From: a virus
IMG/VR virus record: IMGVR_UViG_3300013233_000195
Location: 1-64,000 of that record
Reading direction: 5' to 3' (one strand)
DNA: 64,000 bases
The position numbers and the translations under genes were made by a program. The notes under the pieces were generated by a model that made no database searches, had not been told where the DNA came from, and saw nothing but the letters and a program-made list of their open reading frames with translations. Position 1 is the stretch's first letter. The number at the start of each line of letters is the position of its first letter. Positions 21,727 through 63,829 of this stretch are shown here, piece after piece.

Positions 21727-24700
21727 ATGACCCAGCCATTGTCTCTGGTGTCCTCCCATTTTTGTGAAGAGGGGGGAGTCCTAGACCAACTAACTATAGA
21801 GGAAAAGACTGTCTCGGACGCCATTTTGAAAAACAGTAATGGAGAAGTAATCTTCAGGAAGGATTCAGTCACACACCCGAAGAGTTGGAGTTCTACAGCA
21901 GTCACAACTGCTGCCCACAAGTATTTTTACGATGGGGAGAACTCTGTCTATGACTTGATAGCACGAGTTGTAGACACTATTACTAGGTGGGGTATTGAAG
22001 AGAATTACTTCACTGAAAAAGAAGGCCAGGTATTCCATGATGAGCTAACATACATTCTCTTAACGCAAAGAGCTTCATTCAACTCTCCCGTGTGGTTTAA
22101 TCTAGGCACACCGGAATCACAAGCAATTTCCGCATGCTACATTGAGAATGTGGAAGACAAAATGGAGTCCATTATAGACCTCCAGGCCACAGAGACCAAA
22201 ATCTTCCGAACTGGTGCGGGGGTTGGTGTAAACCTCTCTTCTCTACGAAGCTCCTATGAGCCCATTTCGGGCAGAGGAACCACTTCCAGTGGTCCAGTAG
22301 CATTTATGCGTGGACTGGACGCTTGGGGGGGTGTGATGAAGAGTGGTGGAAAGACTCGTCGGGCGGCTATGATCTTTCTGTTGAATGCAACCCACCCAGA
22401 CATTCTAGAGCTTGAAGACGGTTCAACGGGCTTTGTTGGATTAAAGGGCGAGGAAGAGCGAAAGGCCAAAGCCCTTGCTGAAAGCGGTTGGTCTGCACAA
22501 CTTCATGGAGATATGAAGCGGAAGCTGTTCTTCCAGAATGCAAACAACTCCGTTCGTGTGACGGATGACTTTATGAGTAAGGCATGTGGAGAAGATCCCG
22601 ATCCCAATTACAGTACCCATGATGTTGTTAGTGGGGAGCCTAGACACCTTCTTAATGCTAAGGATGTTCTGATGGCAATTGCCAAGGCTGCCCATGAGTG
22701 TGGTGATCCAGGACTTCAGTTTAACGACACCATTAACATGTGGCACACATGTCCAAATTCTGGTCAAATTGAGGCTACAAATCCTTGCCAACCTGCTTCT
22801 GCTCTTCTACTCACTCCAGATGGATTACGCTCTCTTGGAGACCTTCGCACAGGAGATACTGTTTGGTCGGGCAGTGACTGGACGAAGATTGTTAACAAGG
22901 TAAGCAGGGGAATCAAGCCAGTTTACAAGTATATTACAGATTCTGGTTCCTTTTTGGGAACAAAAGAGCATCATATTGTTTCTAATGGCAAAAAAGTTGA
23001 AGTCCAGAAAGCAGACACTATTGATGTCTGTTGTGGCCCAAATCCCAACGTACCCAAAACATATCTATGGGCACTTCTTAATGGACACCGATTTTCTCGG
23101 CTGGGAGGAGACATCACACCAGCCCTCATTCAGCCCCCCCAAATTCTCTGTTCCTTCTTAAGAGGAATATTCTCTGGTCGGGGCAAGATCAATGAAGGGA
23201 ATGCACAAGTCACTCTTAGACTTAAGGATACAAGTTCCCTAGAGGCAGTTCAGATAGCTTTGTCTTCTGTAGGAATTAGAAGTCAGATACTAGACCAGAA
23301 AAAGGGAGCATCCTTGGTAATTAACGAGGACTTAGAAAAGTTTCAACATTCGGTAGGATTCTTGCTAAGACAATCCGACCTAAATAAGGTGGTAGAAGCC
23401 GCCTCTCATAGGGAGCCTACTTCCTTTGAAACACAGTCTAGAAAGATCATTACTAGTGAATCCTGTGGGGACCAAGAAGTCTTCGATATTGCAGTAGATG
23501 CTCCTGAGCACACTTACTGGACTCAGGGGCTGTTGGTTTCTAATTGCGCGGAATATGTTTTTCTTCCTCATACTTCCTGTAACTTGGCCTCAATTAACTT
23601 GGATAAGTTCTGGGAGCCAAACAATCCCTCTTTCTTGATTGATGACTACACTCATACAATCAGAGTCATGGCAACCGCAATGGATATTCTTATTTCTCGG
23701 GCAGATTATCCAACACCAGAGATTGCTAAGGAAACACGGGAGTATCGAACAATTGGTCTTGGTTTTACAAACTTGGGCACAACTCTACTGGGGCATGGAA
23801 TCCCTTATGACAGCCCCACTGGGAGGCACTTTGCCACAGCTATTGCATCCCTTCTAACTGCGACTGCTTACCGGCAATCTTCCAAAATTGCTGAGAGACT
23901 CTCACCCTTCCCAGCTTTTGAGAAGAATAGAGATACAATGCTAGAGATTATAAAAAGACATGGAGAGTGTGTTTTTGTCTCCGAAACCCCTGTGTGCAAT
24001 GAGATCATGGGCGAAGCGGAGCTATGCTGGCACGCTGTTCTAGCGGAAGGAGCCCAGCATGGTTTTAGAAATGCTCAAGTTAGTGTCGTCGCTCCAACAG
24101 GCACAATCAGTATTCTAATGGATTGTGACTCTACAGGCATTGAGCCCATGTTCCAGATCAACCCAGTAAAAACAATGATTGACGGGGGACAGCTTACCTA
24201 TCAGATGAAGGCGGTACAAAGGGCTCTGGAAACTCTGGGGTATGATAACACAGAAGAGATCATGCAAGAGATCCAAGCCGGGAAGATGGATAAGCTACAC
24301 CATGAAGACCTAGCCGTCTTCGACTGTGCTCTTCCAGCAACGCCAGGGGGTCGTTGCCTGACTCCTGACGCCCATCTCAAGATGATGGAGGCTGTTCAGC
24401 CCTTTATCAGTGGTGCTATTTCAAAGACAGTAAACGTCCCCGCAGAAGCTACTGTAGAAGATGTCTTTCAACTCTATATTTCTGCCTGGAGGATGGAGTT
24501 GAAGAGCGTTGCCATCTATCGAGATGGGAGTAAAGATGATCAGCCCCTCCGCTCAGGTCAGCAACTCGGAAAGACAAAGAGTGGGAGACGAAGGTTGCCC
24601 AGTGAACGGAGTTCTATCACCCATAAGTTCTCCGTGGGAGGCTTGAAGGGATATGTTGTCGTGGGTCTTTTTGAAGATGGAACTCCTGGAGAACTATTTG

Positions 24701-25065
24701 TAACGGCCTCAGAACAAGGCTCCGTTATTCAGGGCCTGATGGACGCTTTTGCAACTTCGTTCTCTTTGAACCTCCAATATGGTGTTCCTTTGGATGCTCT
24801 CATTCGGAAGTTCCGAAATGCTGCTTTTGAGCCTTCTGGATTCACTGGAAATCCAGATATTCCAACAGCGCGCTCTCTTGTGGCATACATTGTCCGATGG
24901 CTGGATCACAAGTTTGCTCAAAAGGATGCGGAGGGCAACAACCAGAAAATCGAAGAAGTTCCCTTCAAAACCTGCTTGGAGTGTGGTAGTATGATGAAGC
25001 CATCTGGAGGCTTCAACTGTTATGTTTGCCCCAACTGTGCATCAAGCGAAGGAGTTTGTGGATGA
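21727..25065 (+). CDS. nrdJ: Class II (B12-dependent) ribonucleotide reductase with intein
   Basis: 1112 residues, about 859 after removal of the intein at residues 354-606. It converts ribonucleotides to deoxyribonucleotides using adenosylcobalamin. Visible signs: NSPVWFN, the catalytic NPC/AEYVF junction, TSCNLASINL, PTGTISILMDCDSTG and a C-terminal Cys-rich zinc domain (CLECGSMM, CPNCASSEGVCG) typical of NrdJ. No second subunit or activase gene is nearby, consistent with class II. With ThyX and Dcd it forms a dNTP supply set. Confidence 0.93.
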   Translation: MTQPLSLVSSHFCEEGGVLDQLTIEEKTVSDAILKNSNGEVIFRKDSVTHPKSWSSTAVTTAAHKYFYDGENSVYDLIARVVDTITRWGIEENYFTEKEGQVFHDELTYILLTQRASFNSPVWFNLGTPESQAISACYIENVEDKMESIIDLQATETKIFRTGAGVGVNLSSLRSSYEPISGRGTTSSGPVAFMRGLDAWGGVMKSGGKTRRAAMIFLLNATHPDILELEDGSTGFVGLKGEEERKAKALAESGWSAQLHGDMKRKLFFQNANNSVRVTDDFMSKACGEDPDPNYSTHDVVSGEPRHLLNAKDVLMAIAKAAHECGDPGLQFNDTINMWHTCPNSGQIEATNPCQPASALLLTPDGLRSLGDLRTGDTVWSGSDWTKIVNKVSRGIKPVYKYITDSGSFLGTKEHHIVSNGKKVEVQKADTIDVCCGPNPNVPKTYLWALLNGHRFSRLGGDITPALIQPPQILCSFLRGIFSGRGKINEGNAQVTLRLKDTSSLEAVQIALSSVGIRSQILDQKKGASLVINEDLEKFQHSVGFLLRQSDLNKVVEAASHREPTSFETQSRKIITSESCGDQEVFDIAVDAPEHTYWTQGLLVSNCAEYVFLPHTSCNLASINLDKFWEPNNPSFLIDDYTHTIRVMATAMDILISRADYPTPEIAKETREYRTIGLGFTNLGTTLLGHGIPYDSPTGRHFATAIASLLTATAYRQSSKIAERLSPFPAFEKNRDTMLEIIKRHGECVFVSETPVCNEIMGEAELCWHAVLAEGAQHGFRNAQVSVVAPTGTISILMDCDSTGIEPMFQINPVKTMIDGGQLTYQMKAVQRALETLGYDNTEEIMQEIQAGKMDKLHHEDLAVFDCALPATPGGRCLTPDAHLKMMEAVQPFISGAISKTVNVPAEATVEDVFQLYISAWRMELKSVAIYRDGSKDDQPLRSGQQLGKTKSGRRRLPSERSSITHKFSVGGLKGYVVVGLFEDGTPGELFVTASEQGSVIQGLMDAFATSFSLNLQYGVPLDALIRKFRNAAFEPSGFTGNPDIPTARSLVAYIVRWLDHKFAQKDAEGNNQKIEEVPFKTCLECGSMMKPSGGFNCYVCPNCASSEGVCG
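22786..23544 (+). mobile_element. Intein in nrdJ with degenerate LAGLIDADG endonuclease
   Basis: 253 residues from Cys (CQPASALLLTPDG, block A) to Asn (QGLLVSN, block G), followed by the +1 Cys of the extein. Block B is GTKEHHI (T-x-x-H). The middle contains one LAGLIDADG-like motif, LRGIFSGRG, where the metal-binding Asp is replaced by Arg, so the homing endonuclease looks inactive. The penultimate residue is Ser, not the usual His. It interrupts the enzyme exactly at the catalytic Cys, so splicing is required for activity. Confidence 0.92.
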
Positions 25066-32476: not shown

Positions 32477-33262
32477 GTGAAGCGATTCATCCTGTATGGT
32501 CGAGGCCGGTGTGGGTCAACCCCCGTAGCAGACGAGATCGACCGAGGGGTACATAGTGCTTGTGTGCTAGAGCCCTTTATTGACAAGGAAAGCATGGGAC
32601 CAGGAATTCATATTCCCCTTAAGTTTGATCTGTGGTTAGAGCATCATGGGATTCCATCAAGTATGGCTTCGGTAGTGTATAGCCCCTATCTGGAGTACAT
32701 GGAAACAACAGTAAGTCAGCGAAGAGATATTTCTGCTTTTGGATTCAAGATTATTGCTAATCAGATGACAGAACGAAGAGGGTTGTTAAAGACACTAAGG
32801 AGAAACAACTTTGAGATCCTCTTCCTCATTAGAAAAAATGTGATTAGACAAGCAATCTCTTCAATGATAGCTGAACAGCGAGGAGTCTACAATGCAAAGG
32901 GCTATACCCCTCCTGAGTCAGAATCTTTTGTATTAGATACTTCTACTCTTGCCGAGGCAGCAGCAAGATTTGAAAGAAGCAATGAGGAGACTCAGCAACT
33001 CTTTGAGGAGATGGGATTTCCTGTTCATACATTTTATTATGAAGACTACTGTAGTAACAGAAGAGCATTTCTGATCCGAGTTCAGAGAACTCTTCAACTC
33101 TCTCAGTTAAATCCAACGGAGACACGGTATTCAATAATGACTCCAAGAGATTTGACTACAATCATAAGCAACTTAAGTCAGGTACGAGAACAGCTCAAGA
33201 GACATAATTCTGAATATGTGGAGATGCTGGATAACCCGGAGTACGGACATGAAACCACTTAA
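32477..33262 (+). CDS. Sulfotransferase-like protein
   Basis: 261 residues from a GTG preceded by AAGGAGGAG. The N-terminal GRGRCGSTPVA resembles the 5'-phosphosulfate-binding loop, and EILFLIRKNVIRQAISSM the 3'-phosphate-binding segment of PAPS-dependent sulfotransferases (closest in look to Stf0-type). It may sulfate a surface glycan. No PAPS synthesis gene is present, so the donor would come from the host. It overlaps rtcB. Confidence 0.72.
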   Translation: MKRFILYGRGRCGSTPVADEIDRGVHSACVLEPFIDKESMGPGIHIPLKFDLWLEHHGIPSSMASVVYSPYLEYMETTVSQRRDISAFGFKIIANQMTERRGLLKTLRRNNFEILFLIRKNVIRQAISSMIAEQRGVYNAKGYTPPESESFVLDTSTLAEAAARFERSNEETQQLFEEMGFPVHTFYYEDYCSNRRAFLIRVQRTLQLSQLNPTETRYSIMTPRDLTTIISNLSQVREQLKRHNSEYVEMLDNPEYGHETT

Positions 33263-34472
33263 TATATGGGGAAAAGAGTTCATTGATGACCCCACAATGA
33301 AGCAGATGCAGCGGTGTATGTCCTTGCCAATCACTGTGGCTGGGGCACTTATGCCTGATGCTCATTTGGGCTATGGACTTCCCATTGGTGGTGTTCTAGC
33401 TACGAAAGATGCTGTGATCCCTTATGCTGTTGGTGTGGACATTGCTTGTAGGGTGATGCTCTCCGTCCTACCTATTACTCAGGTTGGAAGTCAAGATCCA
33501 TTGAACATTCTGGGCAACGATCTAAAGGAAGCTATTGATGAATCTACTTGCTTTGGGGTTGGTAGCTCCTTTGAGACGGAAGATCGCAGACAGCATAAGG
33601 TTCTAGATGATCCCCGCTGGGGAACGTTAGAAAGGCATATTCCAGACATCGTGGATCTTGCATGGAGACAACTTGGTACTTCAGGAGCAGGCAACCACTT
33701 CATTGATATTGGCATGTTAGAGTTACAAGAGCCCTACCAGACAGGAGATAATGGTGGTACACATCGGCTAGATGCTGGAACCTATCTTGCCATCCTAACT
33801 CACAGTGGCTCAAGGGGACCTGGGTATAAAGTATGTAATCACTACTCTCAAATAGCACAGTGGATGAATGTCAGCCTTAGTGACGAGCAGAAGCATCTGG
33901 CTTGGCTTCCGCTAGACACAGAGGAAGGTCAGGAGTATTGGAACGCAATGGAACTGATGGGAGAATATGCTTCGGCAAACCACCATTTAATACATCAAGG
34001 AATCTATAATCATCTCAATGTCTCCCCTTCTTTAGTGATTGAGAACCACCATAACTTTGCCTGGAAGGTGAATCCTACAGGACTTCCTGAAGATGAGATC
34101 ATTCTCCATCGAAAGGGGGCTACCCCGGCAGAAGAGGGAGATGTGGGAGCCATTCCAGGTACATTTGCTTCGCCCACTTTTGTTGTGCGGGGACTTGGCA
34201 ACGAGCAAGCTCTGTGGTCCTCCGCACATGGAGCGGGGAGGGCCTTGAGTCGGAAGAAAGCTAAGATGTCTCTCTCCTGGGATATGATCGAGCCTACGCT
34301 AAAGAAGGAGAAGATTGAGGTTATGTCCTCCTCACTAGATGAGCTACCATTTGCCTATAAGTGCATAGAACGAATTATGAAGGCCCAAAAGGATCTAGTA
34401 GAGATCTTTGGTGTTTTCCATCCAAGACTTGTTAAGATGGCTACGGGTAAGAAACTACACAGAACTTCCTAA
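33249..34472 (+). CDS. rtcB: RtcB-type RNA ligase
   Basis: 407 residues. RtcB landmarks: PDAHLGYGLPIGGV, YAVGVDIACRV, GTSGAGNHFIDIG, THSGSRG, ENHHNFAW, HRKGATPA and the guanylylated His in SAHGAGRALSR. It joins 2',3'-cyclic phosphate ends to 5'-OH ends, so it can repair tRNAs cut by host anticodon nucleases. A tRNA cluster and a second RNA ligase in the same phage fit this. Confidence 0.93.
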   Translation: MKPLNIWGKEFIDDPTMKQMQRCMSLPITVAGALMPDAHLGYGLPIGGVLATKDAVIPYAVGVDIACRVMLSVLPITQVGSQDPLNILGNDLKEAIDESTCFGVGSSFETEDRRQHKVLDDPRWGTLERHIPDIVDLAWRQLGTSGAGNHFIDIGMLELQEPYQTGDNGGTHRLDAGTYLAILTHSGSRGPGYKVCNHYSQIAQWMNVSLSDEQKHLAWLPLDTEEGQEYWNAMELMGEYASANHHLIHQGIYNHLNVSPSLVIENHHNFAWKVNPTGLPEDEIILHRKGATPAEEGDVGAIPGTFASPTFVVRGLGNEQALWSSAHGAGRALSRKKAKMSLSWDMIEPTLKKEKIEVMSSSLDELPFAYKCIERIMKAQKDLVEIFGVFHPRLVKMATGKKLHRTS

Positions 34473-36917: not shown

Positions 36918-37057
36918 ACCATCTAGCTATTGTGCTATATGGAAGGCCAGCTACTGCGAGAGAGTATTTGGGGGGATCTAATGCAAAGATTCTTGAAGAC
37001 GCGGCGAAGATACTGGAAAGACTTTTGTGTGAGCTAAAGGAGAAAGACAATGAGTAG
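36905..37057 (+). CDS. Small hypothetical protein
   Basis: 50 residues from a TTG 8 bases after AAGGAGG, ending in the start of the next gene. Helical and acidic (SNAKILEDAAKILERLL). Not recognised. Confidence 0.55.
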   Translation: MDALDHLAIVLYGRPATAREYLGGSNAKILEDAAKILERLLCELKEKDNE

Positions 37058-37259
37058 TGGTGGAAGAAAGAAGCCGGTATTCCTCCCGAACCCAAGGCTG
37101 ACGGTGGGCGAAGCAAGAGCCCTTCGTAGTTCGAAGGTTATTATGGGGTGGGGGGATGTAATGAGGGTCCATGCCCCAAACTGTAGGTGCCCTGCGTGCC
37201 GTGGCATCCGCAAGCTCCGCGCCGCGCTCAAGCGGATGGAAGAGGAGGAGAAGCCGTGA
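37050..37259 (+). CDS. Small Cys-rich protein
   Basis: 69 residues with AAAGGAG upstream. CRCPACRGI near the end is a likely zinc knuckle. Start sequence duplicated at 36813. Overlaps the next gene by four bases. Confidence 0.65.
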   Translation: MSSGGRKKPVFLPNPRLTVGEARALRSSKVIMGWGDVMRVHAPNCRCPACRGIRKLRAALKRMEEEEKP

Positions 37260-37639
37260 AGATCGACCACCGCGAGCTGGAGCGCGACCTGGCCCGCAAC
37301 CCGGCGGACTACGACGATGACAAGGTGCAGACGCGAACCTGCCACTTAGCCAACCAGTACGGGCACGTCTTTGGAAAGGTGGTACTGGCTCCTGAATGCG
37401 GGAGCGACTTCTGTGATAGCTGCGGCGATTGTTTGGGCTGTTCGCAAGCAGACGGTCCCTGCCTCGTGGACGAAGACGGGAACCACTTCTGGGTCCATTA
37501 CAGCGACGACGTGGAGGCGTTGAAAAAGTGGCTCGAAGAAAGGGAGGTGGACGAGGCGCACAGGGAAAAGCTGGTCGCCACCTGGAGTGATTTCGACCCA
37601 CTCAAGCAGGCAGAGAAGGAGGAAAAAAACAATGAGTGA
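37256..37639 (+). CDS. Hypothetical Cys-rich protein (GC-rich island)
   Basis: 127 residues from a GTG after GGAGAAG. A cluster of seven Cys residues (CGSDFCDSCGDCLGC) suggests metal binding. Codon use is visibly GC-richer than in the neighbouring replication genes. Not recognised. Confidence 0.7.
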   Translation: MKIDHRELERDLARNPADYDDDKVQTRTCHLANQYGHVFGKVVLAPECGSDFCDSCGDCLGCSQADGPCLVDEDGNHFWVHYSDDVEALKKWLEEREVDEAHREKLVATWSDFDPLKQAEKEEKNNE

Positions 37640-38037
37640 TCACAAGGGAGAAGTGGGAAGCCGACGTGTTCTACGAGGTCTGGAGGCTAGTGATGATTAA
37701 CCTAGACGACAACCGCCGGACGGGGCGTACATCACGGATGCTCGCTGAGGCAGAACGCTTGGTTCGCGAGGAGGGCAAGCCTGTTCTAATTGTTGCGGCG
37801 AACTATGCTCAGTCCGAGGCCCTTCTCAAGCAGATTCCAAAGGATATTTCTGGTTCGATAGAAGTGCTTACTCTCCGAGAAGCGGCAACGCGGATCGACT
37901 TCGGCGAGGGCGATTGGCCCCGGATGTGGGGTTTTTGTGTCTGCCTGGCAGATCACTACGCGACCGAGTTGTTTCTGGAGGAATGTGCTGGGTGGCTGAT
38001 TGATCAGAGGAATCAGTGGGAAGCTGGAGGTGAGTGA
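37636..38037 (+). CDS. P-loop-like protein (GC-rich island)
   Basis: 133 residues from GTG at 37636, or 114 from the ATG at 37693, which has the better Shine-Dalgarno (GGAGG). RRTGRTSRMLAEAERL followed by VLIVAANYAQSEAL resembles a minimal Walker A and strand. No Walker B is obvious. It directly precedes the ATPase. Confidence 0.6.
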   Translation: MITREKWEADVFYEVWRLVMINLDDNRRTGRTSRMLAEAERLVREEGKPVLIVAANYAQSEALLKQIPKDISGSIEVLTLREAATRIDFGEGDWPRMWGFCVCLADHYATELFLEECAGWLIDQRNQWEAGGE

Positions 38038-39116
38038 TGCGAATTGAAGAGTTGCAGCTACACAACTTCCGCCGCTATGAAGCCGCTTTGTTCCGTTTCC
38101 ACCCACAGTTCACAGTCCTCGTCGGTGACAACGGGAAGGGCAAGACAACGGTGCTTGATGCACTGGCGGTGCTGTTTGGCACCTACTTTCAGGGTTCGGG
38201 GATTGAGATAGGGCGACGAACAATCCAGAAGTCAGACGCACGCTTCGTCGTACACGAAGTCGAGGGGCAGGTCTCGTTCGAGCCGCAACGCACGGTCTAC
38301 CTCAAGGCGACGGTGGAAACCGGTGGCCGGTTGCTCACCTGGAGGCGAGATCTTGGAGATCGGGGCTCCAAGGCCCGAGAGCTTATTGAGTTGGGAGCGC
38401 AGCATCGCGATAGGGTCGCGGCGGGAGACTTCACCGACCTCCCGCTGATGCTCTACTATGGCTCGGGTCGGCTGTGGTGCCCTCACAAGGATGTGCAGCC
38501 CGACCGCCCAGGCTCTCGCCTGGATGCATATCGCTTCAGCCTTGACCCCAAGTCCGACCACAAGGGCTTCGAGAGGTGGTTCAAGCGCCTCACATACGCC
38601 GCGCTTCAGAAGGGCACGGAAAGCCCGGCAATTGAGGCGGTCGCGCACGTCGTGAAGTCTTGCATCCCGGATGCACAATCTTTTTTCTTCGACACTGGTG
38701 GGGACCACATGGTCCTCTCCTTGGATGATGGGGAGTCGGTCCCTTTCGACAACCTCTCGGATGGCTTTCGGAACATGGTCGCGATGGTTGCGGACATCGC
38801 CCATCGTGCGAGCCGCCTCAACCCCCACCTCGGAGCGGACGCCCCCGCTCTCACGCGGGGGATTGTGCTCATCGACGAGATCGACCTCCATCTCCATCCG
38901 CGCTGGCAACGACGTGTCGTCCACGACCTGAAGACCGCCTTCCCGGCACTCCAGTTCATCGCCACCACCCATTCGCCGTTCATCCTTCAATCTCTCAGTC
39001 CCGGCGAGGTCATCGACCTTGATCTCGACACGAGCGCAGCCATCGTCAAGGCGACCCTGCCAGGAGCCGCGGCGCTGGCGAAGAAGGAGGCTATAAAAGA
39101 TGAAAAGCGATCTTGA
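38037..39116 (+). CDS. RecF/OLD-like AAA ATPase (GC-rich island)
   Basis: 359 residues. Walker A GDNGKGKTT near residue 33, signature-like NLSDGFRNM, Walker B GIVLIDEIDLHLHP and a switch His in IATTHSPFIL place it with the RecF/SMC-like ATPases of the COG3950 sort. Relatives work in DNA repair or in anti-phage systems such as Septu and some retrons, normally with a partner nuclease; no HNH or TOPRIM nuclease is adjacent here. GC-rich sequence and codon use unlike the neighbours suggest recent transfer. Confidence 0.82.
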   Translation: MRIEELQLHNFRRYEAALFRFHPQFTVLVGDNGKGKTTVLDALAVLFGTYFQGSGIEIGRRTIQKSDARFVVHEVEGQVSFEPQRTVYLKATVETGGRLLTWRRDLGDRGSKARELIELGAQHRDRVAAGDFTDLPLMLYYGSGRLWCPHKDVQPDRPGSRLDAYRFSLDPKSDHKGFERWFKRLTYAALQKGTESPAIEAVAHVVKSCIPDAQSFFFDTGGDHMVLSLDDGESVPFDNLSDGFRNMVAMVADIAHRASRLNPHLGADAPALTRGIVLIDEIDLHLHPRWQRRVVHDLKTAFPALQFIATTHSPFILQSLSPGEVIDLDLDTSAAIVKATLPGAAALAKKEAIKDEKRS

Positions 39117-40744: not shown

Positions 40745-40892
40745 TAGCGCTGTAAAGGTCTCTAGAATCATTATAACGGTTGCATCTGGTTTCACAGGCA
40801 TCTTCCTCCTTGGAGCGGCCCCAAAAACCATTCTAGGTATCTTCCTGCTTGCTTATGCGTTTATCCGCATCATAGGAGATCTCTACTTATGA
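40734..40892 (+). CDS. Small membrane protein
   Basis: 52 residues starting inside the ligase stop region, with GGAG upstream. Two hydrophobic segments (IIITVASGFTGIFLLG and ILGIFLLAYAFIRII). Unknown role. Confidence 0.6.
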   Translation: MSFDSAVKVSRIIITVASGFTGIFLLGAAPKTILGIFLLAYAFIRIIGDLYL

Positions 40893-42813: not shown

Positions 42814-43491
42814 CTACTCCGCGTCGTCGTCCGCGTCGTCGTCCGCGTCGTCGTCCGCGTCGTCGTCCGCGTCGTCGTCCGCGTCGATCAACGCGCGGAC
42901 GGCCGATTCGGACGCATCCCGCTCCAGCGTATCAAGCTGGCGGGCCAGCGTTTCGTGATCGGCGATCACGCGTCCCAAAAGCGTGTCGTCGTCCCCAGTA
43001 GGACGTTCCAAGAGAGAACGAACCCCGCGCAATGCCGACAGATAGAGTTTGTCATGATTCAGAACCGGATACCAGATAGACTTTTGAACCCCCTCCATCG
43101 CAAGCCGGGCCTCAGGCTTGTGGGCAAGGTGCGCAGGGAGTCCGGAAACAATCGCGGCTTGCGCCGTCCATCGGGCGGTTTTTCCCGCCGCGTGATAGGC
43201 GACTAGCCGACATTCTCGAAGTACTGTATCGGCCTCTTTTCCACCTACCTTGTAGGCGTGAATCTCCACCTCCTGCCCCTTGGGTTTGCGTCCACGCCGC
43301 GTAGCTTTGCCTGATACTCCCTCCGCGATCTTTCGGATTGCGTCAAGGGGATCATCATCGGCCACCATTCCGAGAATCCCGACACCGGCCAAGCCAATCA
43401 TGCCGACCAAGGTGCCAGCGTTGACGACTTGCGCCACAAGCTCCAACGCGAGCAACGCAAGAGCAAAAACGAGGAGCCAAGAACTACGCAT
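42814..43491 (-). CDS. Membrane-anchored protein with Ala-Asp repeat tail
   Basis: 225 residues. The N-terminus is a signal anchor or two TM helices (LLVFALALLALELVAQVV, then a Gly-rich hydrophobic stretch). The middle is soluble, with a basic patch (ATRRGRKPKGQ). The C-terminus is five ADDD-type repeats encoded by a perfect 12-bp repeat. Composition is GC-rich compared with other leftward genes. Function unknown. Confidence 0.72.
   Translation of the reverse strand: MRSSWLLVFALALLALELVAQVVNAGTLVGMIGLAGVGILGMVADDDPLDAIRKIAEGVSGKATRRGRKPKGQEVEIHAYKVGGKEADTVLRECRLVAYHAAGKTARWTAQAAIVSGLPAHLAHKPEARLAMEGVQKSIWYPVLNHDKLYLSALRGVRSLLERPTGDDDTLLGRVIADHETLARQLDTLERDASESAVRALIDADDDADDDADDDADDDADDDAE
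42819..42878. repeat. Five perfect 12-bp tandem repeats in a coding region
   Basis: CCGCGTCGTCGT repeated five times, with a partial sixth copy to 42890. In the leftward gene this encodes Asp/Ala repeats. Copy number is likely to vary by slippage. Confidence 0.9.
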
Positions 43492-43683: not shown

Positions 43684-43979
43684 CGACTTAGGTTTTCGCC
43701 GATCCGTCGATCCGTCAAGCCCACCGACACCATCCCGACGGCCAAAACGGCGTAACTCGTTGTCACGTAAGGAGTTAGGCCATTTTCGACCAGCGTAAAG
43801 AATTCCGTCAACGGTAAAATCGACCGAAACTCGGAAACGCCGAATTCAGCCCCTACAGGCCGAATACGCCCATTCTGCGGTAGGTCCAGAATTATCGAAA
43901 GATTCCGTCGATCTGGCCTAACTTGAGAAAAATCAACGGGTTACGAGGTTCCAGGTTTCGGCTGGCGGATCGGACGGTT

Positions 43980-44066
43980 TGGCACGATTCTTGCTCAAAT
44001 CTCGAGGGTTTTTTTTGGCACGATTCTTGCTCTGGCACGATTCTTGCTCTGGCACGATTCTTGCTC
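43980..44066 (+). repeat. Iteron array of TGGCACGATTCTTGC
   Basis: Identical 15-bp elements at 43980-43994, 44016-44030, 44033-44047 and 44050-44064. The last three are head-to-tail with an exact 17-bp period (element plus TC). Each matches the sigma54 consensus (GG and GC separated by 10 bp). Single copies also lie at 45970, 49074 and 51715, always in the same orientation. Confidence 0.92.
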
Positions 44067-44557
44067 AACGGCCAAATGATAATAGATTCCCATTCTCAAC
44101 CCCCCCCATGCTAAACATATCTATAGTGTATTCTATACTGTATATTGCTTATCTTATTTCTAATCTTATATTCCAATCCAGTCTTCTAATATTCCAGCCA
44201 GTTATTAGTATTCTATTCCGATCTCCCCAATTTCTTGTTAGAATGGGGCCAAAATCGACTAGAATTTCTTATATTGATAGTATGAGCCCAATACAGTCAA
44301 TATAGCGTTTTTCACCTCCCCAAAATGCGTATATTGATAGATAGCTGGGATTATTCCTAAAGGAAACGCACTTTAGCCTTTTCAGAACCGCTATAATCTT
44401 TGTATTTCACAGGGGATAATATCAGGCTAATAACAGTATTATTTATCGCCACAATCAACCGATTTCGGTTGCCATCGCCAGTAAGGCGTCTAGCTTGCGC
44501 TCTAAGCGATTTTCATCTTTGGGGATGCCTGGAGTACCCTATTCGACGATCGTCGAT

Positions 44558-44620
44558 CCTGACGCAATTCAGGGCCGTTCCCGTCGATTCTCCGCCCGTG
44601 ATCGGGACGCAATTCCCGAT
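44558..44620. repeat. Two hairpins with the same CGCAAT loop and different stems
   Basis: CCTGA-CGCAAT-TCAGG at 44558-44573 and ATCGGGA-CGCAAT-TCCCGAT at 44601-44620. The loop is conserved while both sides of the stem differ yet pair, which is what selection for a stem-loop produces. A 14-base perfect palindrome (TCGACGATCGTCGA) lies just upstream. Confidence 0.6.
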
Positions 44621-44664
44621 TCCGGGAATCTGGACGCGATACCACAATATGAATATACAAAAAA

Positions 44665-44698
44665 AATAGGCGCTAGGAGGAATCCCCTAGCACCTATT
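44665..44698 (-). terminator. Intrinsic terminator of the 45.8-44.7 kb operon
   Basis: AATAGGCGCTAGG pairs with CCTAGCACCTATT (one wobble) and on the leftward transcript is followed by a run of eight U. A textbook rho-independent terminator. Confidence 0.85.
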
Positions 44699-44701
44699 AC
44701 T

Positions 44702-44729
44702 ATAGAAGACTAGATTACTAGTCTTCTAT
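44702..44729 (-). terminator. Perfect 12-bp hairpin overlapping the last stop codon
   Basis: ATAGAAGACTAG and its exact complement with a four-base loop. It includes the stop codon of the gene ending at 44718 and lies just before the T-run terminator, so it may stabilise the 3' end. Confidence 0.7.
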
Positions 44730-45907: not shown

Positions 45908-45937
45908 AGTATCGACCCGGACCCGGGGGCCGGTCAA
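45908..45937 (-). promoter_or_regulatory. sigma70-like promoter, leftward (weak match)
   Basis: TTGACC at 45937-45932 and GATACT 18 bases on. The transcript would begin near a GGCTTGCAAAGCC stem-loop. A copy of TGGCACGATTCTTGC lies 32 bp upstream of the -35. Confidence 0.5.
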
Positions 45938-45969: not shown

Positions 45970-45984
45970 TGGCACGATTCTTGC
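45970..45984 (+). repeat. Single TGGCACGATTCTTGC element
   Basis: Exact copy of the iteron, upstream of the leftward 45.9 kb promoter and beside AT-rich DNA, as at 44.0 kb. Confidence 0.85.
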
Positions 45985-46059: not shown

Positions 46060-46250
46060 CTTCCGCTGTTTATCTTATAATCTCTTTTATATCGCCTAGC
46101 TTATCTTATGGGGGATTTCTTATCGGGTGTCTTATCTCTAATGAGGCTTCATATCGGCTATCTTATTCTATCATGCTTGACTCTTATCTTATCGGGGCTC
46201 TTATAGTGGTTTATATCTTATAATGGAATTCTTATCGGGTGTCTTATAAT
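46060..46250. repeat. AT-rich region with CTTAT repeats
   Basis: Many CTTATCTTAT-type words, including a 19-bp exact direct repeat TTCTTATCGGGTGTCTTAT at 46117-46135 and 46229-46247. No gene is seen between 45839 and 46306 apart from the regulatory sites listed. Possibly binding sites or an unwinding region. Confidence 0.6.
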
Positions 46251-49024: not shown

Positions 49025-49053
49025 ATTATACCATGGCGAGACGTGGCTGTCAA
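49025..49053 (-). promoter_or_regulatory. sigma70-type promoter, leftward P7
   Basis: TTGACA at 49053-49048, 17-bp spacer, TATAAT at 49030-49025 with TGG extension. The TGGCACG element ends 20 bp upstream of the -35, in the opposite orientation. Confidence 0.9.
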
Positions 49054-49073: not shown

Positions 49074-49088
49074 TGGCACGATTCTTGC
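49074..49088 (+). repeat. Single TGGCACGATTCTTGC element
   Basis: Exact copy, 20 bp from the -35 of P7. The flank between element and promoter (CGCCGGGTTT, CAAGCCCGAA) is also shared with the 51.7 kb copy. Confidence 0.9.
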
Positions 49089-51665: not shown

Positions 51666-51694
51666 ATTATACCACGGCGGAGATCGGGTGTCAA
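51666..51694 (-). promoter_or_regulatory. sigma70-type promoter, leftward P8
   Basis: TTGACA at 51694-51689, 17-bp spacer, TATAAT at 51671-51666 with TGG extension. The TGGCACG element starts 20 bp upstream, as at P7. Confidence 0.9.
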
Positions 51695-51714: not shown

Positions 51715-51729
51715 TGGCACGATTCTTGC
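51715..51729 (+). repeat. Single TGGCACGATTCTTGC element
   Basis: Exact copy with the same flank and the same 20-bp distance to the -35 as at 49.07 kb. Confidence 0.9.
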
Positions 51730-58668: not shown

Positions 58669-58743
58669 TGGTGTCCTGCATGGGAATCGAACCCATTTCT
58701 GGGGGTTGAAGGCCCCCGATCCTAACCAATAGACGAGCAGGAC
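58669..58743 (-). tRNA. tRNA-Glu (UUC)
   Basis: Full cloverleaf with anticodon loop CCTTCAA between five-base G/C stems, T arm GGGTTCGATTCCC, encoded CCA. Its first base is the last base of the preceding gene's stop codon. Confidence 0.92.
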
Positions 58744-58967
58744 TATACACCTTTGCTATTTTCTTCTTTATCAATCCAATTTCCAATGTCTTGCAAAAGG
58801 GACGCACCGACAACAACGCAACCCCAGTAGAAGAAAAAGAAGGAGAAGAAAACTCCCAGAAAAGCTAAGACACCAACTTTTGATAAAATCAGTGGTAGAG
58901 AATACTTCACCAGGCAGAAAGCACTCACAAGAAATGTGAGTATCTTTGCAACAATCTTTCTGGTCAT
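58743..58967 (-). CDS. Small membrane protein
   Basis: 74 residues behind GGGGGG-CGGAG. Two or three hydrophobic segments (ILTFLVSAFCLVKYSLPLI, LGVFFSFFFFYWGCVVVGA). The stop codon touches the tRNA-Glu gene. Unknown; a holin-type role is possible since an M23 peptidase is nearby. Confidence 0.65.
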   Translation of the reverse strand: MTRKIVAKILTFLVSAFCLVKYSLPLILSKVGVLAFLGVFFSFFFFYWGCVVVGASLLQDIGNWIDKEENSKGV

Positions 58968-59018
58968 CTCCGCCCCCCTTTACTATGTTGGGGGAACTGG
59001 ATTCTCTCCAGTCCCCCC

Positions 59019-59047
59019 ATTCTACCACATCCAGAGCAGGATGTCAA
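59019..59047 (-). promoter_or_regulatory. sigma70-type promoter P10 with leader hairpin
   Basis: TTGACA at 59047-59042, 17-bp spacer, TAGAAT at 59024-59019, TGG extension. The first transcribed bases (58990-59017) fold into a GGGGGACTGGA/TCCAGTTCCCCC hairpin. Confidence 0.87.
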
Positions 59048-59054
59048 GGAAAAA

Positions 59055-59870
59055 TTACCAACCCAGGTCGATCCCCGCCGTTAGGAGAGTCAAAGCCTGT
59101 ACCTGCTCAGTCTCCAGCCGGTCATACCTTACTCTCAGATCTAGATCAAGAGAAAGATACTTCACTAGAGCATACTCAAAGTCCATCTCTCCCTCAACCA
59201 CGGAGTCGGCGAAATCTTCGTCCACAGGGTAGAAGAGTTCAAGAGAACGGTTAAGAGTTAAGTTCTCCCACCAAGTAGGCAGAACACTTGTGGAAGACAG
59301 AAGAATCCCATAATCATTCCTTGGAGAGCTTTCTCCTGTGAAAACGGGATAATCTGAAACCGTTCGACGGTAGCGGAAGCCTAGCTCGTTGAACCCATTG
59401 TCATTCTGGACCTGATAAGCAAAATCTGAGTCCAGGGTGTAAGGGTCAAAAGGCTCCACTACTTGCGTTCCATCGGCCTTGAAAACATTATCAATGCCTG
59501 TGGTGCCCCGAACGCGGGCAAGAACGAAAGAGTTGCTTGTGGAGTCTCCTAGCGCCCTTCCAAGCGAAACAGCAAGCCTACCTCGGTTTAGAAATGGGTT
59601 CCGGTCCTCATTCTTACCATCGTGAGCACCATACTCCACGTCAATGGAGTAAAGGGTCTGTAGACCAATAAAGGTGAGAAAATCAACCTGATTCTGAAGT
59701 TGAAGTTCTCCGCGATAGGTGTACTGCTCCTGGCCACCGCGTGCCCAGTTGTCATTGAAACTAGCCATACCCTGAAGTTCTACATCTCCTGCCGCGAAGG
59801 CACCTGTTGCCCAGCATACAATAGCTGAGGTCAAGGCACCTAGAATGAACCACTTGATCTTATTCTTCAT
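59055..59870 (-). CDS. Secreted outer-membrane beta-barrel protein
   Basis: 271 residues. A signal peptide (FILGALTSAIVCWATGAFA) is followed by alternating strands with aromatic ends and a C-terminal aromatic residue (LTAGIDLGW), as in outer-membrane barrels; it recalls DUF481-type proteins. In a phage this would sit in the host outer membrane, for example to alter receptor use. It supports a Gram-negative host. Confidence 0.8.
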   Translation of the reverse strand: MKNKIKWFILGALTSAIVCWATGAFAAGDVELQGMASFNDNWARGGQEQYTYRGELQLQNQVDFLTFIGLQTLYSIDVEYGAHDGKNEDRNPFLNRGRLAVSLGRALGDSTSNSFVLARVRGTTGIDNVFKADGTQVVEPFDPYTLDSDFAYQVQNDNGFNELGFRYRRTVSDYPVFTGESSPRNDYGILLSSTSVLPTWWENLTLNRSLELFYPVDEDFADSVVEGEMDFEYALVKYLSLDLDLRVRYDRLETEQVQALTLLTAGIDLGW

Positions 59871-60431
59871 TTATTCCCTCCATAAAAGTCGGGGATTGAT
59901 TGCTACGTTGTTGTCCAAAACCTCGTAATGCAAATGGTAGCCCCTGGCGTTGCCGGTATTTCCAACAGTTCCAAGTATATCCCCTTGAACTACTTCTTTG
60001 CCCTTATAGACATTTGTTCTGTCTAGATGGGCGTATACTGTCGCAAGACCATTCTGGTGATCTACACAGACAGTATTTCCATATCCAGGGTAATAGCCTA
60101 CCTCAGTCACAACTCCTGTTGCGGTGACTTTGATGGGAGTTCCCCATGGAGAAGCAAGATCAATCCCGGTATGATCTCTGGTTCTTAGTTTCCCAAACCC
60201 CGCACTTACTGGACCGGGAACAGGCGGAGAAAGGGGAAGATGAGAAATAGACTTTTCTATGTCATATTCCACCCCCTGCATTGACTCAGTATTTTCTTTG
60301 AGTTGGAAGACCTCCTGCTCTAGGATAGTTACCCTCTGTGAGAGATCCTCTATATGGGACATGAAAAACCCAGCCCCAACAAAAAGTCCCCATGCAATAG
60401 CACAGAGGATGATAGCAAAGGTGTATCGCAT
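59871..60431 (-). CDS. Membrane-anchored M23 peptidase
   Basis: 186 residues. N-terminal TM anchor (FAIILCAIAWGLFVGAGFF), a short coiled coil (LSQRVTILEQEVFQLKEN), then the M23 zinc fold: HTGIDLASPWGTPI and GYHLHYEV (H-x-H). It would cut peptidoglycan cross-links, in lysis or DNA entry. It ends at the base before the barrel gene. Confidence 0.88.
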   Translation of the reverse strand: MRYTFAIILCAIAWGLFVGAGFFMSHIEDLSQRVTILEQEVFQLKENTESMQGVEYDIEKSISHLPLSPPVPGPVSAGFGKLRTRDHTGIDLASPWGTPIKVTATGVVTEVGYYPGYGNTVCVDHQNGLATVYAHLDRTNVYKGKEVVQGDILGTVGNTGNARGYHLHYEVLDNNVAINPRLLWRE

Positions 60432-60452
60432 TGCTTTGCCCCCAATAAAAAG

Positions 60453-60528
60453 TGGAAGCCCCGGTGGGATTCGAACCCACGGCTTGCTCATTAGAAGTGA
60501 GCCACTCTGTCCACTGAGTTACGGGGCC
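60453..60528 (-). tRNA. tRNA-Arg (UCU)
   Basis: Anticodon loop CTTCTAA, T arm GTGGGTTCGAATCCCAC, encoded CCA. Reads AGA, a codon used heavily by this phage. Confidence 0.92.
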
Positions 60529-60533
60529 TCTTA

Positions 60534-60896
60534 TTATTCTGACTCTTCTGCCCAGAAGTGAAGGATTCCGCCACCATCGAGCAAGAAGAAGGCGTCTTGT
60601 CCTTGTTTGTATACCGCTGTAACCTTTCGCACGGGATTAAACTCATAGGGCTCAAGTCCATCCATATCCGAAGCATTCAGAGACCAGTGAACTAGCTCAT
60701 CGTCAACTTCTTCCCCACCAAACACTCGAAAAGTGTCTTGTGAGGCAAAGGACATCATAAGGGTCTTCTGAGAAACCCTGGAGATCATCTGGATTTCTTG
60801 ATTGACAAAGTAACCCAGTCCCTGGGCATTGGAACTCTCCGGCCAATCTACAAGAGTTGATCCAGTATCCATCTGAAAGCCAATGTGAGCTAGCAT
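60534..60896 (-). CDS. Hypothetical protein
   Basis: 120 residues; AAGGAG lies 5 bases before the ATG. Beta-rich (TAVYKQGQDAFFLLDGGGILHFW). It sits between two tRNA genes with five bases to spare. Not recognised. Confidence 0.66.
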   Translation of the reverse strand: MLAHIGFQMDTGSTLVDWPESSNAQGLGYFVNQEIQMISRVSQKTLMMSFASQDTFRVFGGEEVDDELVHWSLNASDMDGLEPYEFNPVRKVTAVYKQGQDAFFLLDGGGILHFWAEESE

Positions 60897-60915
60897 TGTC
60901 ATCTCCTTTTAGTAG

Positions 60916-60991
60916 TGGCACCCCCGGCAGGAATCAAACCCGCATCTTCACGGTTCGTAGCCGTGTGCCTTGTTCATTAGACCACAGGGGC
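60916..60991 (-). tRNA. tRNA-Arg (ACG)
   Basis: Anticodon loop CTACGAA between CACGG and CCGTG, T arm present, encoded CCA. A34 would need conversion to inosine by host TadA to read CGU/CGC/CGA. Confidence 0.9.
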
Positions 60992-60992
60992 A

Positions 60993-61355
60993 TTATAGCT
61001 TTTTGTACTCTTCCAGCGTTAGGGCATTGCTGGCTCCACTAGGGAAATGCCCCTCCATCATACGCAAGAACTCGGGGAGAGTAGGAACCGGAATCTCTTT
61101 CCACAGTTCAACTCCTTGATGGAATCCTAGCCTCCAAAACCGAACCTTGTTGCCTCTCCGTTGCCACCGATAGCAAGGTCTGCCAAAATAACGGACATCT
61201 TCAAACTCTCTGATAGCAACCCTCTCAGTAGGGTATTGGGGGTCTCTTCCCCCCCACCTTACAGAAGGCTTTTTTTGCTTCGCTTTTCTATCCGCTACCT
61301 TCTTTTGCTGTCTACCTCTTTTTTTAGCAGCTTCATAGGGAAGGCTAGAATTCAT
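60993..61355 (-). CDS. Hypothetical basic protein
   Basis: 120 residues behind GGAG. Lys/Arg-rich start (KKRGRQQKKVADRKAKQKK), aromatic middle (YFGRPCYRWQRRGNKVRFW). One base separates its stop from the next tRNA. Not recognised. Confidence 0.65.
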   Translation of the reverse strand: MNSSLPYEAAKKRGRQQKKVADRKAKQKKPSVRWGGRDPQYPTERVAIREFEDVRYFGRPCYRWQRRGNKVRFWRLGFHQGVELWKEIPVPTLPEFLRMMEGHFPSGASNALTLEEYKKL

Positions 61356-61370
61356 CTTCTTCTCCTTATG

Positions 61371-61449
61371 TGGCGCACGGTATGGGATTTGAACCCACGA
61401 TCACTGGATTGACAGTCCAGGGCCTTAGACCAGACTAGACTAACCGTGC
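61371..61449 (-). tRNA. tRNA-Asp (GUC)
   Basis: Anticodon loop CTGTCAA between CTGGA and TCCAG, slightly long D arm, encoded CCA. The last ten bases of the neighbouring coding gene, including its stop, are the 5' end of this tRNA. Confidence 0.9.
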
Positions 61450-62027
61450 ATATTCTTTTTCAATAGTCTGCGTGTACAGTTTACTTGCCACTTTGCCTCT
61501 GCCCACCTTACTGACTCTCTCCGCGCATAAGAGAGGATGTTTTCAGCAAGGTCATAACAGGCTTTCGTTGTGTTTATTGCAGTAATAAGAGTAATCTGCT
61601 CTACTGCATTGGGGAGCAAGCGAAATAGTAAGTTCCTGTAGTTTTTAAGTTCTTTATCTGTGATCTCCCCAGCAATCCACCGTCGCTTTACCTTTATGGC
61701 CTCTTTGATCCCTCTGGCCTCGTCTATTACAAGCTCAAAAGATCTAGCCCAAACAGCGCGTTCCATAAAACGACAGCCAAGCTCATGCAGCAGAGGAGCC
61801 GGAATCAGTTTTGGGCGTAGTACCACCCAAAGCAGGTCTGCATACCATTCCTCATCTCGTCTATTTGTAGGAACTACCAAGATTCTCGGATTCAGTAGAT
61901 CTTGTGCTGTCCAGAACTTTTTACTCTTAAGCAGTTCCCGTACCCGCCTCCGTGGATATCTGTAACACGGTCTCCAAGAAATGATATCTTCAGCCGTTAC
62001 ACGAAAAGACTTTTCATCAAAAGACAT
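61440..62027 (-). CDS. Hypothetical protein ending inside tRNA-Asp
   Basis: 195 residues. ISWRPCYRYPRRRVRELL and APLLHELGCRFMERA are found in bacterial proteins of unknown function. Its last codons (ATG CAC GGT TAG) lie in the tRNA-Asp acceptor stem. Confidence 0.7.
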   Translation of the reverse strand: MSFDEKSFRVTAEDIISWRPCYRYPRRRVRELLKSKKFWTAQDLLNPRILVVPTNRRDEEWYADLLWVVLRPKLIPAPLLHELGCRFMERAVWARSFELVIDEARGIKEAIKVKRRWIAGEITDKELKNYRNLLFRLLPNAVEQITLITAINTTKACYDLAENILSYARRESVRWAEAKWQVNCTRRLLKKNMHG

Positions 62028-62028
62028 T

Positions 62029-62802
62029 TTAGGCTCCTGAATCTTCTTGTTGGGGCCAGTTAAGATATGCTACATGAGTAGTTCTTCGTCTTACGCCTCC
62101 AGTTCTGATCCCCTTTGCCATTGTGGGCGCAAGGGAAATCCAATCTAGATTCCAGAGGCTGTCTGCATTATCTCCATAAGTGAAGATTACTGGAATACCT
62201 TTCTCCCCACAGGTTGAAATGAGTTTGTCAACTTGACTCTTAATATGACTATACTTATTGCCTCTGTTCTTACTTGAGTAGCCCCTAGTTCCATGATAAG
62301 GAGGATCTAGAAATACAAGATCTCCTGGTTGTGGATCATAGGTGCCAGCCGAGCCACGAACGACAATAAGATCCTTTAACCGTGGAAGTGCTCGAATGGT
62401 TTTCTCAACTGGAAGATTGTGCTGTGGGTAAATCTTCCAAGAGGAAAGCTGACCAACTACGAAACTTGTAACATTAACACGGATATAAGCCTGCTCCCCA
62501 GGAGAGAGATTTGGAATCTCTCGAACATCGGTCTTGGGTTTGGCCTGTTTAACTATTTTATCCAATTCCCAAAGTCTCTTGGGAGTTATATGAGCTAAGG
62601 CCAGCCACAGTTGAACAACTGGTATGGATGTATCTAACCCAAAGCCCGGTAAACCAGAGTTCAACCAATATGCTCCAGAGCCAAGAAAAGGCTCTACTAC
62701 TATTCTAGTGCCTGATGGCGGATCTCGGAGAAGTTTAAGAACTCTCGTTTTCGATCCTTGATATCTGAACAGTTTGAGAGGCTTCCCATCAGGTAGCTTC
62801 AT
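62029..62802 (-). CDS. dam: DNA adenine methyltransferase, Dam-like
   Basis: 257 residues. FRYQGSK, EPFLGSGAYWL (motif I) and FLDPPYHGT (motif IV, DPPY) are those of N6-adenine methyltransferases of the alpha (Dam) class. It would protect the phage from GATC-type restriction. TAATG-coupled to the gene upstream. Confidence 0.87.
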   Translation of the reverse strand: MKLPDGKPLKLFRYQGSKTRVLKLLRDPPSGTRIVVEPFLGSGAYWLNSGLPGFGLDTSIPVVQLWLALAHITPKRLWELDKIVKQAKPKTDVREIPNLSPGEQAYIRVNVTSFVVGQLSSWKIYPQHNLPVEKTIRALPRLKDLIVVRGSAGTYDPQPGDLVFLDPPYHGTRGYSSKNRGNKYSHIKSQVDKLISTCGEKGIPVIFTYGDNADSLWNLDWISLAPTMAKGIRTGGVRRRTTHVAYLNWPQQEDSGA

Positions 62803-63005
62803 TACTTGGCCTCTGAAGTTACAGCAGACTCCTTCGCCCACTCACTTTCTAGGATCTCTTCAATGTTGTCAATTGCTAGAGCAAACGTATCTATCATGGC
62901 AGCGTCCTCAAGAGAGTATTGGGCATGATCCTCAAAAAAGCCATACACTTCTTGCAAATTCCCTAAAGCCCTGGACAGACGAAAACGGATGTTTGAAGGC
63001 ATCAT
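62802..63005 (-). CDS. Small acidic helical protein
   Basis: 67 residues, helical throughout (IDTFALAIDNIEEILESEW). Coupled to dam. Not recognised. Confidence 0.62.
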   Translation of the reverse strand: MMPSNIRFRLSRALGNLQEVYGFFEDHAQYSLEDAAMIDTFALAIDNIEEILESEWAKESAVTSEAK

Positions 63006-63014
63006 AGCTTTCCC

Positions 63015-63206
63015 CTACTTTGTTAGAGTACGAGCAGGCATTACTCGGTTACGACGGCGAGTAGCCCTCCACAACTCTCTAGCAGCCCTCTCAGTCATTC
63101 CATTGAACTTCATCAAATGATGGACCTTATGCTTCTCAAGAACGCCCTCAGTCTTGTACTTCTCCCGAGAAGGCTTCTTGTTACTCCCTCTTCCCTTCTT
63201 AGCCAT
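63015..63206 (-). CDS. Small basic protein
   Basis: 63 residues behind AGGAG. Lys/Arg-rich, helix-turn-helix-like end (NGMTERAARELWRATRRRN). Not recognised. Confidence 0.62.
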   Translation of the reverse strand: MAKKGRGSNKKPSREKYKTEGVLEKHKVHHLMKFNGMTERAARELWRATRRRNRVMPARTLTK

Positions 63207-63225
63207 TGGCTTTCTCCTAAAAGGT

Positions 63226-63304
63226 TGGTGGAGGCGGTGGGATTCGAACCCACATCTTCAACGGCTTAAAAGGCCGGTACTCTGCGCAATTGAGTTACGC
63301 CTCC
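63226..63304 (-). tRNA. tRNA-Lys (UUU)
   Basis: Anticodon loop CTTTTAA, T arm GTGGGTTCGAATCCCAC, encoded CCA. First base pair of the anticodon stem is a mismatch. Confidence 0.9.
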
Positions 63305-63310
63305 AATTTT

Positions 63311-63386
63311 TGGAACCCCCAACAGGATTTGAACCTGTATCCTCTGCTTAGGAGGCAGGAGCACTATCCCCTTGTGCTATGGGGGC
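63311..63386 (-). tRNA. tRNA-Arg (CCU)
   Basis: Anticodon loop CTCCTAA, T arm CAGGTTCAAATCCTG, encoded CCA. Reads AGG. Confidence 0.92.
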
Positions 63387-63414
63387 TTGAGCCTATTGAG
63401 CCGTTCGTGCGCCC

Positions 63415-63443
63415 ATTATACCACGACGGGAGGGGGGAGTCAA
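63415..63443 (-). promoter_or_regulatory. sigma70-type promoter P11 between tRNAs
   Basis: TTGACT at 63443-63438, 17-bp spacer, TATAAT at 63420-63415 with TGG extension. It fires leftward into tRNA-Arg(CCU) and the genes beyond. Confidence 0.85.
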
Positions 63444-63478
63444 GCAAAAAAGCGTCAACCCCCCTCCCGGTTGTGACT

Positions 63479-63555
63479 TGGTGGCCTCCCTCGGACTCGA
63501 ACCGAGATCTTTTCGGTTAAGGGCCGAAATCTTTGCGCAATTAAGTTAGAAGGCC
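63479..63555 (-). tRNA. tRNA-Lys (CUU)
   Basis: Anticodon loop CCCTTAA, T arm CTCGGTTCGAGTCCGAG, encoded CCA. Confidence 0.92.
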
Positions 63556-63561
63556 AAAATA

Positions 63562-63649
63562 TGGCGGAAGGTGAGAGGTTCGAACTCTCGCTGGTGTTAC
63601 CCAGGCTACAGTTTAGCAAACTGACGCCTTTCCACTCGGCCAACCTTCC
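63562..63649 (-). tRNA. tRNA-Ser (GCU)
   Basis: Type II tRNA with long variable arm; anticodon loop TTGCTAA, T arm GAGAGTTCGAACCTCTC, encoded CCA. Confidence 0.92.
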
Positions 63650-63653
63650 AAGA

Positions 63654-63741
63654 TGGCGGAAGAGGAGGGATTCGAACCCCCACAGGTGTTACCCCGACTA
63701 CTGGGTTCAAGCCAGCTACATTACCGTTCTGTCACTCTTCC
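63654..63741 (-). tRNA. tRNA-Ser (UGA)
   Basis: Type II, anticodon loop CTTGAAC, long variable arm, encoded CCA. Its 5' end abuts the CCA of the next tRNA with no spacer. Confidence 0.9.
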
Positions 63742-63829
63742 TGGCGGTAGAGGTAGGATTCGAACCTACGGAGCTATTACACTCACCTATTTTCGAGATA
63801 GGCGCATTAATCCTCTCTGCCACTCTACC
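63742..63829 (-). tRNA. tRNA-Ser (CGA)
   Basis: Type II, anticodon loop CTCGAAA, variable arm TGAGTGTAATAGCTCC, encoded CCA. Its 5' end overlaps the stop codon of the gene upstream. Confidence 0.9.

Follow-up and report, generated by a model that had tools for sequence, protein, structure and literature searches.

A short DNA word that recurs in a single direction beside opposed blocks of phage genes raises the question of which protein reads it, and with what effect. Such a word, TGGCACGATTCTTGC, forms an array in the 100,623-bp phage record IMGVR_UViG_3300013233_000195, the first 64 kb of which are the window analysed in the present study. The original prediction noted the agreement of this word with the sigma54 -24/-12 element and set three readings side by side, namely an iteron replication origin with an adjacent unwinding element, tandem sigma54 promoters or decoys directed rightward against the genes, and operators read from the other strand for leftward transcription.

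Results

The array consists of four exact copies of the word on the plus strand (43980-43994, 44016-44030, 44033-44047 and 44050-44064), the last three following one another at a 17-bp period, as had been described. A search of the whole record revealed three further exact plus-strand copies in the window that had been missed; these solo boxes occupy 45970-45984, 49074-49088 and 51715-51729. The whole 100.6-kb record therefore carries seven exact copies, all on the plus strand and none on the minus strand, and no exact copy of a reversed control pattern. With up to three mismatches allowed, 10 matches were observed in the window versus 1.44 expected in shuffles. No known RNA family was matched at the array, and the DNA hairpin predicted there is weak (z -1.8).

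The proposed fit to the sigma54 GG-N10-GC pattern proved stronger than first stated, and the whole extended consensus YTGGCACG-N4-TTGC is matched. GG and GC lie exactly 10 bp apart in all seven copies. Against the broader form YTGGCAYR-N4-TTGCW, the array boxes are complete and the solos depart only at the W of position -11, where the array has T and all three solos have G. Using a matrix built from 42 intergenic E. coli sigma54 sites mapped by ChIP-seq (PMC4591121), the array boxes scored above all 42 mapped sites and the solos above 41 of the 42.

The genes of the window run mainly rightward from about 0 to 42.6 kb and mainly leftward to the right of 44.7 kb, and thus the array sits in a convergence gap. 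The claim of a gene-free block of about 1 kb holds for 43684-44717 in the sense that this region is gene-poor. The array is followed by a non-coding, partly A+T-rich tract (44067-44664) with no convincing gene, and the A+T-rich DNA originally noted was recovered at 44101-44400 (62-67% A+T). This tract extends to the terminator of the next leftward operon, which ends at 44718; the terminator (44665-44698, minus strand) has a 15-pair stem and a T run. All seven boxes point right, that is, against the leftward genes and away from genes, and no convincing rightward gene was found downstream of any of them. The non-coding tracts that follow the boxes measure about 600 bp past the array and about 270 bp past the solo at 45970. 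Repeated TATCTTAT-like words were also observed in non-coding DNA at 44140-44220 and 46071-46250, just past the array and this solo, respectively.

Each solo lies behind a leftward sigma70-type promoter. The solo at 45970 is 32 bp behind a weak match on the minus strand (45908-45937, TTGACC-18-GATACT, 9/12 matches), whereas those at 49074 and 51715 are exactly 20 bp upstream of the -35 elements of two paralogous minus-strand promoters with 12/12 matches to TTGACA-17-TATAAT (49025-49053, with TG before the -10 element, and 51666-51694); these two modules share 81% identity over 79 bp. Intrinsic terminators, reading leftward, come before the array and two of the solos; in addition to the one at 44698-44665, they lie upstream of the units transcribed from 45937 (46285-46256, 13-pair stem and T run) and 51694 (51790-51755, 15-pair stem and T run). 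About 20 sigma70-type promoters are present on both strands of the whole record, with TTGACA-17-TATAAT or a close variant and in many cases TGTGG before the -10 element; examples are found at 223, 20550 and 32425 on the plus strand and at 69050 and 100484 on the minus strand, most of them without a sigma54-type box. Among these strong promoters, only the two perfect ones in the present block have a box within 60 bp.

Several other features of this phage were observed. About 35 tRNA genes, a near-full set, lie on the minus strand, from 58669 to 63829 in the window and continuing as far as 71291 in the record. A 225-aa protein without a Pfam match (42814-43491, minus strand) carries a C-terminal Asp-Ala repeat encoded by an exact 12-bp DNA repeat, in a region with G+C above that of its neighbours. 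A G+C-rich island (37001-39000, 57-60% versus about 45%) begins with a gene for a 360-aa, distantly SbcC-like protein. The large subunit of ribonucleotide reductase (21727-25065, plus strand, 1112 aa) is longer than its profile match suggests and possibly contains an insertion. The phage also encodes an RtcB-like tRNA ligase (33216-34472, plus strand); a sigma54 site has been mapped at rtcB of E. coli (PMC4591121), and a link between the phage ligase and the boxes is possible.

Boxes of the same kind are widespread in other viruses. The 15-mer was found in at least 120 stretches of IMG/VR and a reversed 16-mer in 4. Tandem pairs of TGGCACG-N4-TTGC placed 2-30 bp apart were observed in at least 120 viral stretches, versus 0 for the reversed pattern, and in 31 cases in 257 Gb of prokaryote genomes; these are raw counts from collections of 2.9 million viral and 11.3 million prokaryote contigs and give no fold enrichment. 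Several of the 31 prokaryote matches look like repeats in coding DNA; a sigma54-activator gene is found close to one match and a phage-like gene close to another. The viral boxes are clustered, often with one cluster per genome, and are arranged in tandem (17-28 bp and more), convergently (mostly at 18-22 bp) or divergently; the loci were chosen by motif, and the numbers of viral stretches are minimum counts. Their per-genome placement relative to sense and antisense, which is blurred by spurious open reading frames, was not relied on. Twelve cultured phages with a distantly homologous terminase or primase showed no box clusters, although several of their hosts are expected to carry rpoN.

The bases of these viral boxes are constrained in the manner of a sigma54 site. 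At the collected loci, degenerate TGGCA-N6-TTGC copies numbered 329, compared with 10-21 at neighbouring spacings, and in the non-seed copies the bases left free settle on YTGGCAYR-RTTY-TTGCW at that spacing only. In 65 non-redundant clusters, 106 one-mismatch sites were observed versus 1 in shuffled DNA, and spacings other than GG-N10-GC gave almost no sites. The departures fall mostly at W-11 (42), T-15 (34) and T-26 (12), while G-25, G-24, T-14, G-13 and C-12 account for 1, 0, 1, 0 and 2, respectively. Among 152 pairs of related viral regions, which are phylogenetically non-independent and in which one member was picked for its box and the partner was free to vary, the core bases differ by 0-7% (most by less than 4%), compared with 12-32% for the adjacent bases and 26% for the first free position. 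An invariant GG and TGC with a varying T-15 and W-11 is thus the pattern seen both in the one-mismatch sites and in the substitutions among relatives. A, T and T are preferred alike in E. coli and in viruses at the first three free positions, whereas C at the fourth is preferred in viruses and not in E. coli; the tolerance per position shows a moderate rank correlation between the two (0.59, p 0.04). Perfect boxes in 15 bacterial genomes were too near chance (33 sites versus 18 for the control) to give base preferences.

The geometry relative to sigma70-type promoters also recurs elsewhere. A perfect sigma70 promoter with a box facing away at 15-35 bp was found in 13 stretches, several of which are copies of one sequence, and with a box facing toward it in 2. 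Strong promoters (11 or 12/12 matches) gather at 15-50 bp behind the TGGCA end, where 18 of the 24 within 180 bp lie, compared with about 0.2 expected per 5-bp bin, an excess partly inflated by loci that had been fetched for this feature. The gaps gather near 16-22, 29-34 and 39-49 bp; their periodicity is weak (p 0.02 in the deduplicated set and 0.15 in the unbiased set), and helical phasing is suggestive only. A search of 297 genomes from a single bacterial phylum yielded no such sigma70-box module. Many of the box-bearing phages have a small-terminase-like gene approximately 0.2-0.8 kb from the cluster, with the large terminase gene mostly at 0.8-2.3 kb, and the boxes point away from the small-terminase-like gene at 21 of 33 loci and toward it at 9. 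In one 57.7-kb viral contig (L001), inspected by eye, a degenerate GG-N10-GC element (TTGGCAY...TGCATTA) was seen 30-60 bp upstream of nearly every gene or operon start and in gene orientation; L001 also carries reversed strong boxes and is a candidate for a phage truly using sigma54-type promoters.

No gene is common to 14 box-bearing genomes of 31-65% GC, suggesting that the reader is probably host-encoded. The widest gene family among them, DNA polymerase, is present in 7, and where large terminases from box-bearing viruses can be aligned, their median identity is close to 34%. A phage-encoded reader common to all box-bearing viruses is therefore unlikely, although a small, fast-evolving one could escape such a gene-sharing search. 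This phage and 35 other records were searched for a sigma54-activator domain, and this phage and 15 others for an RpoN DNA-binding domain, in each case with a negative result; the likely reader is thus host RpoN (sigma54), a host protein whose deeply conserved specificity would fit an unchanged box. Relatives of this phage were sought by DNA polymerase in viral_contigs, and close relatives by megablast of the right arm and by tblastn of the portal and a tail-region protein, and none were found.

Discussion

The copies, their orientation and geometry, the sigma54-type consensus and its conservation in other phages are read directly from sequence, and conservation of exactly the contact bases across many viruses strongly supports the sigma54 identity of the boxes. 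The further proposal that these are sites for the host sigma54 RNA polymerase holoenzyme (E-sigma54), and neither an origin nor promoters of phage genes, is in our judgement about evenly balanced between right and wrong, and it has to be weighed against four other accounts of the same DNA. The iteron origin with an adjacent unwinding region is not supported by the analysis and is very improbable. Head-to-tail direct repeats of 17 bp do adjoin A+T-rich DNA; however, the repeats are not confined to that place, and exact solos 2-8 kb away, together with a terminus-type extremum of GC skew, make an origin unlikely. The cumulative skew has its maximum at 40758, near the array, and its minimum at the contig end, a profile that may also track gene direction. 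Moreover, the genes for the helicase loader, helicase and polymerase lie 37-43 kb from the array, and the boxes of other phages are convergent as well as divergent and irregularly spaced. That the boxes are repeated small-terminase sites of a packaging signal (pac or cos) appears, if anything, even harder to believe. The proximity of many clusters to small- and large-terminase genes in other phages would suit such a signal, but in this phage the portal gene, at 18.4 kb, is separated from the array by some 24 kb, a terminase was not found next to the array, and the box remains unchanged among viruses whose large terminases have diverged as far as described above.

Two further accounts deserve more weight. 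Read on the minus strand as GCAAGAATCGTGCCA, the box might be an operator for another regulator, its likeness to a sigma54 site being a convergence; such a regulator would bind at about -56 to -70 of the leftward sigma70 promoters and act on them from this class I activator position. The original suggestion of operators for leftward transcription is in keeping with the position of the three solos (20, 20 and 32 bp behind their promoters) and does not clearly fit the array, which has no such promoter at that distance. The 13:2 bias in orientation, the grouped gaps in other phages and the regulon-like restriction of boxes to two perfect promoters among about 20 strong ones all favour this account. 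On the other hand, the positions that are frozen and those that vary correspond to those of sigma54 sites, the box-bearing phages have no gene in common, promoters with 12/12 matches hardly require an activator, and the gap periodicity is weak; we regard another regulator as unlikely, with the binder itself predicted in either case. It is somewhat more doubtful still that the boxes are working sigma54 promoters, which would produce rightward antisense or non-coding RNA once a host activator is switched on. The -24/-12 elements are near-ideal, non-coding tracts follow the array and the solo at 45970, and further boxes in L001 stand directly upstream of genes. Yet no rightward gene follows any box here, tandem copies at 17 bp are not all usable by one polymerase each, the boxes elsewhere mostly point away from the small-terminase-like gene, and no phage-encoded activator was found. 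The claim that sigma54 sites fire or act as decoys against the genes was accordingly retained in part: conservation of the contact bases across viruses argues for the sigma54 identity and a docking or decoy role is preferred, while productive rightward promoters fared less well.

Herein, we propose as the best reading that the boxes are non-productive docking sites of host E-sigma54, acting as a trap or a backstop. The poor support for promoters and the 13:2 orientation behind sigma70 promoters are the grounds on which docking is favoured. Host E-sigma54 would bind the near-ideal -24/-12 element and, because the phage encodes no activator, remain as an inactive closed complex. The four-copy array would collect such complexes in non-coding DNA and so form a trap, in which the 17-bp spacing probably allows only alternate sites to be occupied at once. 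At each solo, a single stalled complex would sit behind a leftward sigma70 promoter in back-to-back orientation and might act there as a backstop or insulator while directing no RNA into the genes. During infection, RpoN of the host would thus be bound for trapping or insulation rather than for transcription. Several observations speak against docking. The solos have G and not A or T at -11, and no clusters were found in the 12 cultured phages described above. Nor does a pure trap account for the constant direction of the boxes behind sigma70 promoters. The expression of genes overlapping intragenic sigma54 binding in E. coli was not lowered, which speaks against a simple roadblock. In addition, Salmonella without rpoN was more resistant to two phages; a phage does not necessarily benefit from trapping sigma54, and this counts against a pure trap.

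The clusters suggest that phages hold or trap sigma54 polymerase by means of DNA. More broadly, and tentatively, we hypothesize that selection maintains DNA traps in many unrelated uncultivated phages, namely clusters of near-ideal, non-promoter -24/-12 elements, often back-to-back behind strong sigma70 promoters, which might hold E-sigma54 in the closed state and thereby damp host sigma54 responses or shield phage promoters; this wider hypothesis may well turn out to be wrong. Phages attack or borrow the host sigma70 polymerase, and the sigma54 polymerase drives nitrogen, phage-shock and RNA-repair responses. If the clusters bind E-sigma54, phages would manage this alternative polymerase by DNA itself, box clusters would hint at hosts, in which rpoN is to be expected, and factor titration by viral DNA would have a ready test case.

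Known systems offer partial parallels. The stoperators of mycobacteriophage L5 are short asymmetric sites spread over its genome and oriented the same way with respect to transcription, and they are read by the phage's own repressor. The boxes resemble them as one-way scattered sites and differ in that no common phage reader was found. The chromosomal datA locus carries clustered high-affinity sites that titrate DnaA, and the array is similar in that clustered sites could soak up a factor, titration by the array being our proposal. The RpoN -24/-12 sites of E. coli share with the boxes their base preferences, invariant GG and GC, and spacing; most of those sites showed no apparent transcriptional activity in the conditions used, and many are antisense (PMC4591121). 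Unlike them, the boxes are viral and nearer the ideal, lie in non-coding DNA either in tandem or in pairs that face each other, and are found behind sigma70 promoters. Searches of open-licence PMC papers gave no report of clusters of sigma54 sites in phage genomes, and the phage agents against E-sigma54 that they revealed were only protein inhibitors, namely P7 of phage Xp10 (PMC5053324) and Ocr of T7 (PMC7064336). These inhibitors are comparable to the proposed boxes in that a phage acts on the host sigma54 polymerase; however, P7 and Ocr are proteins that block the engagement of the holoenzyme with the promoter or compete with sigma, whereas the agent proposed here would be DNA.
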